A DNA stretch of 37,450 nucleotides, taken from IMG/VR virus record IMGVR_UViG_3300006079_000001, positions 1 through 37,450 of that record. One strand, written 5' to 3'. The stretch's first letter is position 1. The number at the start of each line of letters is the position of its first letter. Both the position numbers and the translations under genes were made by a program. The notes beneath the pieces were generated by a model. That model did no database searches. It had not been told where the DNA came from and saw only the letters and a list, made by a program, of their open reading frames with translations. Origin of the DNA: a virus. This document shows positions 10,328 to 19,934 of this stretch, in pieces.

Positions 10328-10712
10328 TTATCCTAACCATTCATTTCCTGTAGAGATTCCAGAGTATAACCAAACTGCATACAATTTTATAGGTGTGCGT
10401 GCAAAAAACACAGGGCTTAACCAAGTGTTGCAAGTGCATCAGTTTTGTAAAAGCTCTGCAGACTGGAGTAGGTTAAAAGACGAATTTAAAACACCTCAAT
10501 CATTAGGTAATTATCACAGTGTAATAATGATACACAACCCTACTGTAGTGTCAAAGCCGGCATTTAAGCCTGCCACAGATGTACCAAAAAAGAAGAGGGT
10601 AACACCTCCACTTAAAAAAAAAATAGTTAGCATGATTGATGAGGGTGCATCTTCGGATGTCATTGCAGAGGAGTTAGGGCTATCAGTCAAGCAAGTAGAA
10701 AACAACATTTAA
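10320..10712 (+). CDS. Hypothetical protein with C-terminal HTH-like helix
   Basis: A 130-aa protein starting MTDYPNHSFPVEIPEY. The frame is open upstream and includes an ATG at 10260, but ATG 10320 is preferred since it overlaps the portal stop by only eight bases and has AAGGAG upstream (10302-10307, 12 bases away). The C-terminus (KKKIVSMIDEGASSDVIAEELGLSVKQVEN) has the three-helix look of a homeodomain-like HTH, preceded by a basic linker. In this position it may be a head assembly factor rather than a transcription regulator; a DNA-binding role at the portal or in packaging is possible. Confidence 0.55.
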   Translation: MTDYPNHSFPVEIPEYNQTAYNFIGVRAKNTGLNQVLQVHQFCKSSADWSRLKDEFKTPQSLGNYHSVIMIHNPTVVSKPAFKPATDVPKKKRVTPPLKKKIVSMIDEGASSDVIAEELGLSVKQVENNI

Positions 10713-13909: not shown

Positions 13910-14361
13910 TGGGATTTGATGACAGCATATTAGATGACCTGAAGAGGACAATATCAGAGATACAGGATGCTGTCAATGGTTCTATACAAGAGTCCATAGA
14001 CCAGAATAAACAGATAATAATGGAGCTGCAGACACAAGAGCAGATGTACCAGGGGATTGATTCCAAAGGTATAGACATAAAACCTGCCTATGCAAACTCT
14101 ACCATAAAGATAAAAAGGAATAAAGGACAGCCTACAGATAGGGTCACTTTATTTGATACGGGAGCATTTTACAACTCCTTAGAGATTATTGCAGGTAAAA
14201 ATGATGCAATAATTAGGACAATTATTAGCTATTCTGTATTTTTAGTGGATAGATATGCTGATATTTTGGGGCTTGATGATGAGAACTGGACTAAGTTTCT
14301 GAACAATTATACTATACCAACCATTAAAAAGAACTTTGATGATATTATTGCAAAATCCTAA
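13909..14361 (+). CDS. HK97 gp10-like head-tail connector/neck protein
   Basis: A 150-aa protein starting MGFDDSILDDLKRTISEIQD. The frame is open further upstream, but ATG 13909 overlaps the previous stop as TAATG and begins a clean helix. The middle contains the motif TLFDTGAFYNSLEI, typical of gp10-like neck proteins (LxDTGxLxxS), followed by the strands and helix of that family (SYSVFLVDRYADILGLDDEN). These proteins sit between portal and tail. Position immediately before the tail-completion-like gene supports the call. Confidence 0.7.
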   Translation: MGFDDSILDDLKRTISEIQDAVNGSIQESIDQNKQIIMELQTQEQMYQGIDSKGIDIKPAYANSTIKIKRNKGQPTDRVTLFDTGAFYNSLEIIAGKNDAIIRTIISYSVFLVDRYADILGLDDENWTKFLNNYTIPTIKKNFDDIIAKS

Positions 14362-14362
14362 C

Positions 14363-15619
14363 ATGCCCGTACCAGTTAATGCAGTGGAAATTGATGCTGC
14401 TATATTGGATATTAAGGCACACTTAGAGACAGGATTATCATGGTTGACAAATGGCTATGGTAGAACTTATAAGAACTTAGATGCTCGCAATGGGACTACA
14501 GTATTTTATCCTGAGGCTTACCTGGGGGAGCAGAACAACTCACATAGATATATCAACCTTTCCCCTGACAATGACAAGCAGGGGCAATGTTTTTTTTATG
14601 TGACCAAAGAGAATATATCACAGTTCCAGCCGGGCATGTATTCATTTTTGAGCTATGATACTGCTATTATTTTTTCTGTAAACATGGAGCTTATTAATGA
14701 GGCTCTATTGCGGACAGAAATCTATCAGCAGGTGCTAGTGTCACAGGTTAGGGATATATTAACCAGACAACTACTAGGGGCAGCCTATCAGCTAACGATA
14801 GCATCTGTAGACTTTCAATTTGATAATGTGTACAGTGAGTTTGATTTGGCAGATGCTCAGCAACTTGAAAAAGCCCCTTTATCACACTTTAGATTTAATT
14901 GCACAATCAAACTGCCTGAAACGTGCCCCGTTCCGGTTATAGAAACATGTTTTAGCATGGATTTAGATGGCGTAAATGAGTATATTGACTGTACAAATAA
15001 TTCAGCTTTTGACTTAGAACATACCTCTCCTATGTCTTTTTCTTGTTGGGTAAAATTTGATACCTTGAATATTATTCAAAGCATTCTGTACAAGTGGGAA
15101 CCTAGCCGGGGTATTTTCTTTTCGGTTCGGTCAACAGGAGAATTACAGCTACATTTGCAAAATAACGGAGGACTTAACGGGCTGATTATAACAAGTTCGG
15201 GCGCAAATATAACCCCGGGAAATTGGTATTTTTTATCTTGTACATACGACGGAAGCAACACACCCGCAGGCGTTAAATTTTACAAAAACGGTGCGTTATT
15301 AACAGGCAACACAACTACAGCAAACAGCCTAACAGGTACAATTATAAATACTCAGCCGGTGCATTTGGGAGAGTTGGAAAATGGGCTATTAAATAAGGTT
15401 TTATGGTGGAAAACAGAACTTTCTGCGGCTGAAATTATAAACTATTACAATGATAAAAATATAATTCCTAAGGTATCGGATTTAATACTTAGCACAGATA
15501 TAAATAACTCTACATTTAACGGGACAGAATGGGATATTCCAGACCTCACAGGAATTACCGCAGGATACACATCTATTAATATGGAGGCAGGGGATAGAGT
15601 AGAAGACTGTCCAATATAA
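14363..15619 (+). CDS. Neck/tail-completion protein fused to a LamG-like lectin domain
   Basis: A 418-aa two-domain protein. The N-terminal part (about 1-185) has the length, position and helical start (AVEIDAAILDIKAHLETGL) of tail terminator/completion proteins. Residues about 196-365 form a concanavalin A-like domain: FSMDLDGVNEYIDC, MSFSCWVKFD, GNWYFLSCTYDG and GVKFYKNGALLTG are the strands of the LamG_3 pattern, with a closing VLWWKTELSAAEIINYYN helix. A carbohydrate-binding domain on a neck protein would decorate the head-tail junction and may tether virions to polysaccharide. ATG 14363 is chosen over 14336 because it follows the upstream stop by one base. Confidence 0.65.
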   Translation: MPVPVNAVEIDAAILDIKAHLETGLSWLTNGYGRTYKNLDARNGTTVFYPEAYLGEQNNSHRYINLSPDNDKQGQCFFYVTKENISQFQPGMYSFLSYDTAIIFSVNMELINEALLRTEIYQQVLVSQVRDILTRQLLGAAYQLTIASVDFQFDNVYSEFDLADAQQLEKAPLSHFRFNCTIKLPETCPVPVIETCFSMDLDGVNEYIDCTNNSAFDLEHTSPMSFSCWVKFDTLNIIQSILYKWEPSRGIFFSVRSTGELQLHLQNNGGLNGLIITSSGANITPGNWYFLSCTYDGSNTPAGVKFYKNGALLTGNTTTANSLTGTIINTQPVHLGELENGLLNKVLWWKTELSAAEIINYYNDKNIIPKVSDLILSTDINNSTFNGTEWDIPDLTGITAGYTSINMEAGDRVEDCPI

Positions 15620-15891: not shown

Positions 15892-16055
15892 TGAGCAATG
15901 ATAAGAATATTAAACAGATTGTTAATGTTTCAGAATATTGCGTATATAGCAATGATGGCGAAACAATAGAAATAAAGCTACTAGATGGGGATTTTTCAGA
16001 TTATAAATTCCTTGAAAATTATATAGAACATGGACAAAGTATTATTTTTAAATGA
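15891..16055 (+). CDS. Small tail-region protein, tandem paralogue copy 2
   Basis: A 54-aa protein starting MSNDKNIKQIVNVSEYCVYS at the TAATG overlap. It is a shorter relative of the previous gene's product, keeping the YSnDGxxIxIKL core and the YxFLxxYxEH segment but lacking the C-terminal third. The frame is open upstream to 15849 but that start would cut into the upstream gene. Function unknown. Confidence 0.55.
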   Translation: MSNDKNIKQIVNVSEYCVYSNDGETIEIKLLDGDFSDYKFLENYIEHGQSIIFK

Positions 16056-16299
16056 GTTTGTAGTGTTTTTTTTGGTTTTTTGGTGTCTTATGCTTATAAT
16101 GTACAAACAAAGCATACCAGTAAGAATGTATAACAAGTTTAGTTATAATTTTATAGACAAGTTGACCAATTGTGAATTTTGTATGGAGTTCCACACATCT
16201 ACTGCACTGGCTATCATCTTAGCCCTGCACGATCAGAATCATCTGATACTTTTATACGGTCCAATGTCTGCCGCACTATCCAATATATTAAACAAATGA
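16030..16299 (+). CDS. Small membrane protein with Cys motif
   Basis: An 89-aa protein with two membrane segments (FVVFFLVFWCLMLIMY near the N-terminus and TALAIILALHDQNHLILLYG near the C-terminus) separated by a loop containing LTNCEFCMEFHTS. The CxxC before a helix resembles DUF1360-like phage membrane proteins. It overlaps the preceding gene by 26 bases and the chaperone gene by 4 (ATGA). A membrane protein inside the tail module is unexpected; it might act at the host membrane during assembly or exclusion. Confidence 0.6.
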   Translation: MDKVLFLNEFVVFFLVFWCLMLIMYKQSIPVRMYNKFSYNFIDKLTNCEFCMEFHTSTALAIILALHDQNHLILLYGPMSAALSNILNK

Positions 16300-16775
16300 T
16301 AACATTCAAAAAGAAAAAGACAGAGGTTAGATTTTATGATTCTATTGAGGATATGCCTCACAGGAGATACATGAAATTTAATAAGGAAATGATGAGAGGT
16401 AACGAGGTGGGTAATTCAATTGCTGACGTCATCAAAAGGATAGACAGAGCGATGGGATTTATTCAGGCAAAGGAATCTGACAAAGCTGTCAGGGAGTTGA
16501 GCAATGCCCGGCTAGCCTACTCTTATAGTCAGGCTGAGTTAGAGCCTAGGGGGTTGGCTTTGGCTGCAATGGTTAAGAGTATTAATGGCGTGGAGGTGGA
16601 TGACATTACATCATCAGGGCTACAAAACACACTAGAGGTATTGCAAAATATTGGTATGACTAAAAAAGAGTTATACGGCAATGCTGATTATATAAAAAAA
16701 AAGTCGAGCAAGAACTTAAAATATTCTTTCCTCTCCAGTTTAATGGGAAGAATATCATCTATAATCAGGCGTTAA
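16296..16775 (+). CDS. Tail assembly chaperone G-like protein
   Basis: A 159-aa protein directly upstream of the tape measure gene, the fixed place of the lambda G/GT chaperones. It begins MITFKKKKTEVRFYDSIEDM at the ATGA overlap; the frame is open upstream to 16179, but ATG 16296 is preferred since it avoids a 120-base overlap. Domain: an N-terminal strand-helix region, a helical core (VIKRIDRAMGFIQAKESDKA, NTLEVLQNIGMTKKELYG) and, after the slippery site, a 23-residue basic tail used only without frameshift. Chaperones coat the tape measure protein before tube assembly. The alternative extended product is described separately. Confidence 0.8.
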   Translation: MITFKKKKTEVRFYDSIEDMPHRRYMKFNKEMMRGNEVGNSIADVIKRIDRAMGFIQAKESDKAVRELSNARLAYSYSQAELEPRGLALAAMVKSINGVEVDDITSSGLQNTLEVLQNIGMTKKELYGNADYIKKKSSKNLKYSFLSSLMGRISSIIRR

Positions 16776-17047
16776 TAAAGAAACTTAAGAGCCAATTAGC
16801 CGTTATATTAGATGAGGAGGATGCAGAGCATAGCAATAGTCAGGCAACTAATGAGCTACTCAGGTTGATTAATCCTACATATTGGAATTTAAACATAGAG
16901 AATAGTGCAGAAAAAGAAATAGAGTTATCTTTTGAGGCGTTCATGTTGGCGGTCCGGGAGCATACAACTGAGGACCTGGAGAACATAACTACCTTTAGAT
17001 TTTACAGTCTTTTAGACTACATCAAAAAAAAGCAGAGCAATGGCTGA
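16296..17047 (+). CDS. Tail assembly chaperone G-T fusion by -1 frameshift
   Basis: Predicted 250-aa product: 136 codons of the G-like frame through AAG 16701-16703, then a -1 slip and 114 codons from GTC 16703 to the TGA at 17045-17047. The -1 frame is open from 16688 and reads as normal protein across the apparent gap before the tape measure (VEQELKIFFPLQFNGK, SQLAVILDEEDAEHSNS, FEAFMLAVREHTTEDLEN). It has no ATG near its beginning and ends eight bases inside the tape measure start, exactly the lambda GT arrangement. The T part is expected to bind the tape measure. Evidence is structural, not experimental. Confidence 0.8.
16697..16703 (+). promoter_or_regulatory. -1 ribosomal frameshift slippery site A AAA AAG
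   Basis: The heptamer A AAA AAG lies in the chaperone frame as codons AAA (16698-16700) and AAG (16701-16703), inside a run of nine A (16694-16702). This is the same slippery sequence as in dnaX of E. coli. After a -1 slip both tRNAs re-pair with AAA AAA and the next codon is GTC. The switch joins two reading frames that otherwise end and begin without signals. Confidence 0.8.
16721..16755 (+). promoter_or_regulatory. Stem-loop downstream of frameshift site
   Basis: ATATTCTTTCC (16721-16731) pairs over all 11 bases with GGGAAGAATAT (16745-16755), one pair being T-G, around a 13-base loop. It lies inside coding sequence of both frames, 17 bases after the slippery heptamer. This is further than the usual 5-9 bases, so it may act as a weak stimulator or through a longer fold. 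Confidence 0.55.
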
Positions 17048-19934
17048 TAGTGTAATAAAATATAGTGACCTGATTGGAGAAGATGACACATTTGATGTAA
17101 TCTTCGACAATATAGATAAGCTAAGAAAGGAGCTTAGTGACCTTGCAAAAGATGCTAAGAAAGGGCTTGAGCTTGTCAATCCTAATGATGAGAAAGCTCT
17201 AAAGGCAGCAGTAGAGCAGGTGGAGAAACTTGCCAAGGCAAAAAAGAAACTTGATACAGAGGAAAAGAAAGCAGTTAAGACTAAGAAGAAATTGGCTGAG
17301 CTTACTAATAAGGACCTGATACAGAGAGAAAAGTTAAAGATAGCTAACCGAGAAAGGATACAGAGGCTTAAACAAGTTGCTATACTTACCAATAAGGAAT
17401 CAGGAGAGATTGAAAAACTTAGAGCAAGGCTATCCCTTACTACTTTAGCTTGGAAAAAGTTGAGTAAGGAGGAGCTTGATAATACAAAAAAGGGTAAGAA
17501 TCTGATAGCTACAAAGAAAAAGCTAACAGACCAGCTCAAGAAATTAGAGAAACAAACAGGAGATACAAGGAGAAACGTAGGTAATTATACCACGTCTTTG
17601 GGAAAACTGGGTAAGGTGGCTGCAGGAATATTTGTAGGTAGAAACATAGTCTCTGGATTGCGTAGCATAGGGATGGGATTAGGTAATCTCATAGAAAAGA
17701 ATAAGGATACTAATGAATCTGCCAAGTCTATGTCTGAGTCTATGGGCAAGGTAGGTATTATCCTTGAAAAGATAGGGCTGGTCATAATCAATGTTATAGC
17801 TAAGCCTTTAGCTTTAATAATAACAGGCTTTGAAAAGTTTGCAAGTTCTGTGCTTGGTTTGGATGTAGGCACAAAGAAAGCGAGTGAGGGAGTTAGGGAC
17901 CTGAAGAACGAGTTTAATTCTGAGATTGAGGTACTTAAAAAAGGGAACATATCTACAGAGGCAAGAAAGCAACTGATAGAGGATATAAACAAAAAGTATA
18001 AAGACTATTTACCTAACCTACTGACAGAAAAGAGTAGTCTTGAGGAGATAGAAAAAGCTCAAAATGATGCTAACACTGCATTTGAAAAGAAAATATTATT
18101 ACTCGCAAGTGAGGAGCAGTTTATAGACATCACAAAAAGAAAGCTAGATGCTTTGAGGGCAGAGGCACAGTTGCAAAAAGAATTAGCTAAAGGTGAGGCG
18201 GCAAAAGCTAAAGCACTAAAGAAGAACAAAACAAGTGTAAAGTCAGGGGTTAATATAGCTTTTGGTGCTGCAAAAACTGCAATAAAGCAAACAAAGCTAA
18301 GGATAAAAACCAACAAACAACTGATTAAGCAGATTAATGCCGAAAAGAAAGCATTAGATGCTGTTATTAAAGCACAGGGAATCAATACAGCTAACTTTGT
18401 ATCTAACCAAAAGAAAAAAACCAAGGCAGTAGCAACAGCAGCAAAGGTGTTTAAGGACAATGCAGCACAAAGGATTGCAGCAATAGAAGCACTACAGGAT
18501 AAGATAGCGAAATCAGAGGCAGACAATATTGAGGACCAGACAAATAGGCTATTAGCTTTGGAACAGTTAAAGTTTGAAACAATAGAGAAGCAAAGAAAGA
18601 GTGACTTTGAAAAGTTTAAATCATTATTAAAGCAGCAGGAGGATAATGTTATAGCGTTTTATGGCAAAAAATCACAGGAGCTGATAGATTTTAAGAAAGG
18701 AGCAGGAGAGGAGATTTTGCAATTTGAGGCAGATACTCAGGCACTATCTGAGCTACAACTACAGGAGTCAGAGGATAGAAAATTAAAAATTAGAGAGGAT
18801 TTTGAAAAAAAACAAGCTGCACTACTTGAAAAAGGAATAAAAGAAGAGACAGAAATAACAGATAAAGAGATTGAGGAACAAGATAAAAAAGAATTTGCAG
18901 CTTTTGAGGCAAAATTAAAGAAGAAATTAGGACTACTAACCGAAGAAGAAAAGAAAGAGAGAGACTTTAATAGGAGACTAACAGACTTAAGAATACAAAA
19001 CATACAGAATGATGCTGATAGAGAGGTAGCCGCTCAAAAAGAAAAATTTAACAGAATGAGAGAGGATGTAAAGGCAGATGAAAAGATAACTATAGCACAA
19101 AAAAAGAAACTATTAGCAGAGATAGAAAAGTTAGAAAAACAATCAGCAAAAAAAACTAAAAAAGAAAAAACTAAAGAAAAAACTAACGAGCTTTTAGAGG
19201 GAATACAAAAAACCTCTGAAAAGATAGGTGCCGCAATAGTTGCAACCTTTGAGAAGCAGGCAGATGCTGCGGGGGATTTGGTTAAAACTCAATCCGATGC
19301 AGTGGAGACACAAAGGAAAAGAGCAGAGCAAGGACTATCCAATACTCTGAAATTTGAGCAGGAGCAACTAGCACAAAGAGAGGCTGAGAGAATAAGAGCA
19401 GAGAAGAAAGCAAAACAAGCTGCAGAATTTGTCGCACTAATCAACTTAGTGAGCGCATACGCTGCCTCAGGAGATAGTCAGGCTTTGTCCCGGGGCTTAG
19501 TAGATTTTAGTTTGTTAAAGGCTTTAGAAGCTGGTTTTGAAGATGGTGGATATACTGGAGATAAAGGCACCTCAGATGTTGCCGGGGTGGTGCATGGTAG
19601 AGAGTTTGTTGTAACTGCAGACGATGTTAAGAGATTTGGATTAGCTGGTAAGTCTGGGGGTGATTTTGGAGAGGCTATGAGTGATTATTTCTACTCTCCA
19701 CTACAGCAGAATCTATACAATGGACAGGCAGATAACTTTCAAAAGGAAATTAATGGCAGACCTAATGACTTTGCAAGACTTGAGGATGAGATGAGAGCCA
19801 TGAGAAGAGCTTTCCAATCAGTACCTAAGAATGATTTTGATATCCTACAAATGACAGATTACTTTGTAGACATAGCCAAAAGAGTAACATCCAATAGGAT
19901 GACAAATGTAAGTAAACAGAGAAAACGTTTATAA
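17040..19934 (+). CDS. Tape measure protein
   Basis: The longest gene in the window, 964 aa, following the chaperones. It sets tail length and is threaded through the tube. Residues about 15-180 are Lys/Glu-rich coiled coil; about 185-275 hold two hydrophobic stretches (VAAGIFVGRNIVSGL and GLVIINVIAKPLALIITGF) typical of tape measures that insert into the host membrane; then a very long charged coiled coil to about 800. Near the C-terminus is GGYTGDKGTSDVAGVVHGRE, a recurrent tape measure tail motif. At about 0.15 nm per residue, a known rule for helical rulers, the tail would be near 140 nm. No peptidoglycan hydrolase domain is apparent. Confidence 0.95.
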   Translation: MADSVIKYSDLIGEDDTFDVIFDNIDKLRKELSDLAKDAKKGLELVNPNDEKALKAAVEQVEKLAKAKKKLDTEEKKAVKTKKKLAELTNKDLIQREKLKIANRERIQRLKQVAILTNKESGEIEKLRARLSLTTLAWKKLSKEELDNTKKGKNLIATKKKLTDQLKKLEKQTGDTRRNVGNYTTSLGKLGKVAAGIFVGRNIVSGLRSIGMGLGNLIEKNKDTNESAKSMSESMGKVGIILEKIGLVIINVIAKPLALIITGFEKFASSVLGLDVGTKKASEGVRDLKNEFNSEIEVLKKGNISTEARKQLIEDINKKYKDYLPNLLTEKSSLEEIEKAQNDANTAFEKKILLLASEEQFIDITKRKLDALRAEAQLQKELAKGEAAKAKALKKNKTSVKSGVNIAFGAAKTAIKQTKLRIKTNKQLIKQINAEKKALDAVIKAQGINTANFVSNQKKKTKAVATAAKVFKDNAAQRIAAIEALQDKIAKSEADNIEDQTNRLLALEQLKFETIEKQRKSDFEKFKSLLKQQEDNVIAFYGKKSQELIDFKKGAGEEILQFEADTQALSELQLQESEDRKLKIREDFEKKQAALLEKGIKEETEITDKEIEEQDKKEFAAFEAKLKKKLGLLTEEEKKERDFNRRLTDLRIQNIQNDADREVAAQKEKFNRMREDVKADEKITIAQKKKLLAEIEKLEKQSAKKTKKEKTKEKTNELLEGIQKTSEKIGAAIVATFEKQADAAGDLVKTQSDAVETQRKRAEQGLSNTLKFEQEQLAQREAERIRAEKKAKQAAEFVALINLVSAYAASGDSQALSRGLVDFSLLKALEAGFEDGGYTGDKGTSDVAGVVHGREFVVTADDVKRFGLAGKSGGDFGEAMSDYFYSPLQQNLYNGQADNFQKEINGRPNDFARLEDEMRAMRRAFQSVPKNDFDILQMTDYFVDIAKRVTSNRMTNVSKQRKRL

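Follow-up and report, generated by a model that had tools for sequence, protein, structure and literature searches.

Positions 16296-17047 of the analysed window (the whole 37,450-nucleotide stretch, an IMG/VR virus record) hold one split gene, a putative tail assembly chaperone gene, which probably gives rise to a short and a long chaperone by slippage of RNA polymerase on a run of adenines, as its relatives may do in either of the two reading-frame arrangements. The frame change is real: the G-like open reading frame (ORF) and the start-less -1 frame are the halves of a single protein. Joining 16296-16703 to 16703-17044 yields a predicted product of 250 amino acids, the length that the first-pass annotation had given for a fusion at an A AAA AAG heptamer in the proper frame. 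Compared to PHROG 8914, a family of 250 positions, the G half matches positions 1-145 (E 1.9e-34) and the -1 half matches positions 134-247 (E 8.9e-18), in register with the G half. This continuity supports the same annotation in placing a G/GT-type dual-product gene, with a -1 shift at the A run, before the tape measure gene. Its coordinates for the G stop (16775), the open -1 frame without a start (16688-17047) and the tape measure start (17040) were all correct. The first ATG, GTG or TTG of the -1 ORF lies only deep inside it.

Table 1 Features of the chaperone locus, in window coordinates.
Feature	Position	Strand	Details
Small gene upstream of G	16030..16299	+	stop overlaps G start
G-like short product	16296..16775	+	159 aa; ATG 16296, TAA 16773-16775
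Parts of the short product			conserved N-terminal domain of 136 aa, then 0-frame tail of 23 aa
-1 frame extension (T-like)	16688..17047	+	119 codons open; TGA 17045-17047
Used part of the -1 extension	16703..17044	+	114 aa, plus stop TGA
A9 homopolymer, proposed slippage site	16694..16702	+	codons ATA AAA AAA AAG; A9-A11 across the family
Heptamer A AAA AAG, alternative ribosomal -1 site	16697..16703	+	0 frame
Tape measure protein	17040..19934	+	964 aa; phrog_14476, E 9.9e-18

The gene abuts the tape measure gene, an order shared by its relatives, and the tape measure product also matches phrog_1506, phrog_21845 and phrog_24 (tail length tape measure). Its product matched no fold on record, and it is from the gene order, the two-product anatomy and the annotation of relatives that we infer its role, as the tail assembly chaperone gene of a family of Bacteroidota siphophages (PHROG 8914). 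Searches of the PDB by sequence, and by structure with models of the short and long products, returned no credible match, an absence that is not evidence in itself, and the chaperone of phage K1H was matched in structure only at E 1.9. The significant matches among viral structures are to unnamed proteins, two of which have the lengths of the two products of phage 1/32 described below. No Rfam match was found in the window, and family libraries beyond PHROG gave nothing useful. The short domain of the window was modeled with a pLDDT of 82. In the model of a long relative (L044, pLDDT 92.5) the three lysines encoded at the A run (KKK, residues 134-136) lie inside a helix spanning residues 123-144, so the short form is predicted to end within that helix.

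The same frame change is found at the same KKK codon in ten viral contigs that are 62-91% identical, come from many different metagenome samples and carry A9 or A10, with the -1 frame intact throughout. Among the relatives that keep the split are the close marine ones (L002-L011) and the isolate Flavobacterium phage 1/32 (KJ018210, F132_37/F132_38). Phage 1/32 has the same family member in the same place, with nested products; it differs from the window in having A10 rather than A9, and its protein is 36% identical to the window's fusion. Its GenBank record already holds a short CDS and a joined CDS annotated as tail assembly chaperone. Thus, the earlier view that the frameshift goes unmarked and is missed holds for ordinary ORF calling but not for this record. 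The -1 extension is 73-82% identical across six viral relatives, and the length of the 0-frame tail varies among the split relatives; three representatives (L011, L117 and L118) have no such tail and stop directly after KKK. All 13 split representatives of the extended set described below need a shift of exactly -1, and the -1 frame yields the full protein in 13/13. Finding the same split in ten contigs and in phage 1/32 makes a chance or erroneous frame break very unlikely in this clade.

Most relatives encode the full protein, of 235-258 amino acids, in one frame. These include phages of Bacteroides, Parabacteroides, Elizabethkingia, Croceibacter and F. psychrophilum, and they still hold A9-A11 at the same KKK. 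The extended set of 102 loci was reduced to 66 representatives under 80% nucleotide identity, of which 53 are one-frame and 13 need -1; KKK with A9-A11 is present in 66/66. With 48 further representatives used for validation, the run is found in all 114 divergent representatives counted, in either codon phase. Lysine at the site is encoded by AAA in 192 of 198 codons in the discovery set, compared to 56% elsewhere in the genes (log10 P about -58), and in 143 of 143 codons in the validation set (log10 P -47); the representatives are related, and both P values therefore overstate independence. Pooled, the two sets give 335 AAA codons out of 341, against about half elsewhere. Most of the scans for loci used patterns away from KKK; one later scan did include KKK in its pattern, but left the codons degenerate, which placed no selection on codon choice. 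The run totals about 10 in both codon phases. AAG is used as the third lysine codon only behind ATA, which keeps the run at nine, and no run is shorter. Its length is identical in 28 F. psychrophilum phage records. A homopolymer of about nine or more A or T residues that is kept as a nucleotide feature is one mark of programmed transcriptional slippage, and such a homopolymer is what the family holds.

Five other runs of at least nine A's occur on the + strand of the window, whose GC content is 37%. A9 is therefore commonplace there, and the weight rests on the conservation of the run and not on its presence. A second KKK, at 10605-10630, is written as A10 in a gene of 150 amino acids that follows the portal gene; a weak stem lies upstream of the A10 (10614-10623), and the other two frames stop directly after it. 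We rejected it as a second slippage site, as relatives keep the lysines and not the A run, which is probably there by chance. It serves as an internal control for the conservation of the chaperone run, being kept as protein only. An eight-A run at 17024-17031, near the end of the -1 frame and just before the tape measure start, is not found at that length in relatives. One representative, L094, was considered as a member without the run and was rejected in that role when a better profile put its A9 in place. A remote 280 amino acid match without the run (L123), from the search of Bacteroidota genomes, was excluded from the counts, and another match (L122) was too weak to place. Searching nearly 700 Bacteroidota genomes added few loci: one with E 3.7e-73, which was already known, and two weaker ones.

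In the one-frame genes the run is accompanied by a hairpin. A stem of at least 5 bp that ends 0-1 nt before the run is present in 42 of the 53 one-frame representatives, with 34 different 5' arms, and the mean stem score is 15.5 compared to 9.3 for synonymous shuffles. Covariation in the fixed register is 0.333 against 0.202 in shuffled sequences (0/500 as high), and reaches at most 0.172 when the register is slid. In the validation set the hairpin was found in 35 of 45 one-frame relatives, 15 of the 35 having one common arm sequence; about a fifth of one-frame members have no hairpin. Codon choice upstream of the run is conserved in one-frame genes (ACC and GCC at codons -7 and -6, GCG and GTC at -2 and -1), and this is explained by the inverted repeat located there. 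RNAalifold on a gap-free upstream alignment found no consensus structure in a single register, probably because the register of the stem differs by one base between subgroups. No inverted repeat adjoins the 5' side of the run in the window or in 10 of the other 12 split members; of the two with a stem, L117 has a true one and L003 only five weak bp.

The one-frame genes are also arranged so that losing a base would soon end translation. Of 42 hairpin genes, 38 run into a stop within four codons once one A is lost, compared to 26.8 expected from synonymous codon choice; in the validation set this applies to 34 of 35 genes, compared to 24.6 expected. These counts are suggestive only of loss of one A as the direction of slippage in one-frame members: early stops in the -1 frame were not in excess in the first set but were enriched in validation (30 against 21.3).

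A tree built from the joined proteins implies six flips of the frame state, at least five of them on well-supported branches. L117 lies amid one-frame genes with a hairpin and A10, yet it has A9, and its default frame reads KKK-stop. Bacteroides phage BF8P1 (L120, 1545-1555) has A11 where 16 matching records of close B. fragilis phages have A10, and owing to the A11 its chaperone gene is annotated as two genes. This is either a natural within-species frame swap or a sequencing error; an error is possible for single cases such as BF8P1 and L117. L117 and two other family members sit on contigs assigned to other phyla (L117, Bacillota MAG; L118, Clostridia MAG; L116, Propionibacterium MAG). These are probably mis-binned phage contigs, the family being otherwise seen in Bacteroidota phages.

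We propose that the run of 9-11 A's at the invariant Lys-Lys-Lys, which sits mid-helix, acts as a switch between a short protein made of the N-terminal domain, about 134-159 amino acids long, and a long one of about 250 amino acids with both N- and C-terminal domains. RNA polymerase would slip on the run and add or lose A's, so that part of the mRNA would be read in the other frame. For the window, with A9 and no hairpin, the short protein would be the default and transcripts carrying an additional A would encode the long one, unless the ribosome instead slips by -1 on A AAA AAG. In most relatives, with A10 and one frame, the default would be the long protein; there, a hairpin formed in the nascent RNA just before the run may favour the loss of one A, leading to a stop at or near KKK and so to the short protein. 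A change of one base in the run would swap the default while both products are retained. The RNA-DNA hybrid of RNA polymerase is 9-10 bp long. Since the run is kept at nine or more in any codon phase, even in genes that need no frame change, slippage by RNA polymerase is favoured, and a run of 9-11 with a hairpin at its upstream edge appears to fit that enzyme better than the ribosome. Taken family-wide, with slippage on A9-A11, hairpin-driven loss of an A giving a hidden short form and one-base swaps of the default, the proposal is on balance the reading that we favour from comparative sequence evidence, with somewhat less assurance than its core.

A possible though less likely explanation is the process known from lambda G/GT and E. 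coli dnaX: programmed -1 frameshifting by the ribosome, here on A AAA AAG or A AAA AAA. According to it, tRNA-Lys would slip back by one base, producing T in the window or early termination in one-frame relatives. Such frameshifting is known for tail chaperones (PMC5009743), and two chaperone genes were measured at 6-7% (PMC3711429). An X XXY YYZ heptamer stands in the 0 frame of the window and of the A9-G relatives, exactly -1 is required by every split member, and in the window, where there is a good heptamer and no hairpin, ribosomal -1 slippage would account for the long form equally well; in that case sequence cannot fully separate it from insertional slippage on A9. In the family as a whole, however, the run never falls below nine although the heptamer needs just seven. 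A AAA AAG is confined to the A9-G subgroup (6/66 representatives), and in one-frame members the third lysine codon is never AAG, although this would make the best-known site. The hairpin ends so close to the run that it would already be open once a ribosome stood on the slip site. Neither a purine-rich Shine-Dalgarno-like stretch just upstream nor a structure signal downstream was found (the z score of the downstream 75 nt is -0.65 in the window and averages -0.12 across split members), which gave no support to a downstream stem-loop as a stimulator. Stimulators of these kinds, Shine-Dalgarno-like or downstream structure, are sometimes absent from frameshift sites. When the first-pass annotation invoked the known lambda mechanism it was thus right about the kind of gene and named a plausible process; ribosomal -1 slippage as the mechanism is not established, as the conserved unit is at least nine A's.

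Transcriptional slippage also has to be weighed against readings in which no product is made by a shift, or in which the shift is beside the point. An assembly or sequencing error, or a recent mutation that broke a single-frame gene with nothing programmed, draws on the many single-frame relatives, the error-prone nature of homopolymers and the isolated one-base differences (BF8P1, with A11 against A10 in its kin, and L117). It is nevertheless highly improbable here, given the same split in ten contigs and an isolate phage with an intact -1 frame, and the exact same run length in the 28 F. psychrophilum phage records. That the -1 ORF is an independent gene, read from a start of its own or by re-initiation, has nothing in its favour beyond the ORF being separate, and we give this very little credence: a usable start codon is absent near its 5' end, and by homology it corresponds to the C-terminal half of the single-frame proteins, with KKK at the joint. 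The run and hairpin could also be kept for a DNA or RNA reason unrelated to frame, such as a pause, processing, packaging or recombination signal. The maintenance of a nucleotide-level feature in single-frame genes agrees with this, but the element coincides with the domain boundary at which the split members shift frame, and early out-of-frame stops are enriched behind it, so that we find a frame-independent role improbable.

Several known systems resemble parts of the arrangement. As in lambda G/GT, the tape measure gene follows immediately, and the gene would encode a short and a -1 extended product with a common N-terminal domain, the longer one by a shift into a start-less ORF, with the lysine slip site near the end of G (lambda facts partly from PMC5009743). 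In G/GT-type chaperones the short product greatly outnumbers the long one, and a tail needs both to assemble. Unlike lambda G/GT, the products show no match to known chaperones, the conserved element is at least nine A's and not a heptamer, and most family members are single-frame and have a hairpin upstream of the run. The dnaX gene of Thermus thermophilus uses transcriptional slippage on A9/T9 with inserted A's, and efficient slippage in vivo occurs on nine A's or T's (PMC5009743). The T. thermophilus dnaX case, taken with the -1 frameshift of E. coli dnaX, resembles the present proposal in slippage on nine A or T residues, a short and a long product from one gene and homologues with opposite default frames (PMC5009743); dnaX is an unrelated gene, and here a single family of phage genes contains both arrangements as well as a subtype with a hairpin. 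In a Roseiflexus IS transposase a 5'-adjacent stem loop causes the loss of one base (PMC5009743). The inverted repeat directly 5' of the run is shared with our one-frame genes, as would be the frame change by a one-base deletion. The run there is T5C5 and slippage makes the full product, whereas here it is A10 and slippage would make the short one; the window itself has no hairpin.

We found no report of slippage or frameshifting in the tail chaperones of these phages in the literature outside subscription papers, and as far as the literature searched shows, a putative slippage element kept alike in split and in intact chaperone genes had not been described, although its kinds are known. If the proposal is true, many published phages, among them B40-8 and B124-14 of B. 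fragilis and the FpV group of F. psychrophilum, make another tail chaperone product that their annotations lack, and it becomes clear how single-ORF chaperones may still supply G and GT forms. The family would then be a natural series for testing hairpin-directed RNA polymerase slippage in Bacteroidota, and a search for broken frames alone would miss slippage sites hidden in intact genes.

The window also encodes portal, major head and tail proteins. Most relatives have a gene similar in size to the small one upstream of G, which shows a weak DUF1360 match (E 0.027). The gene at 14336-15619 encodes a tail-region protein (phrog_8145) that has, at its C-terminus, an additional lectin domain of the concanavalin A-like type (Laminin_G_3, E 2.3e-14), and its counterparts in annotated relatives are mostly much shorter.
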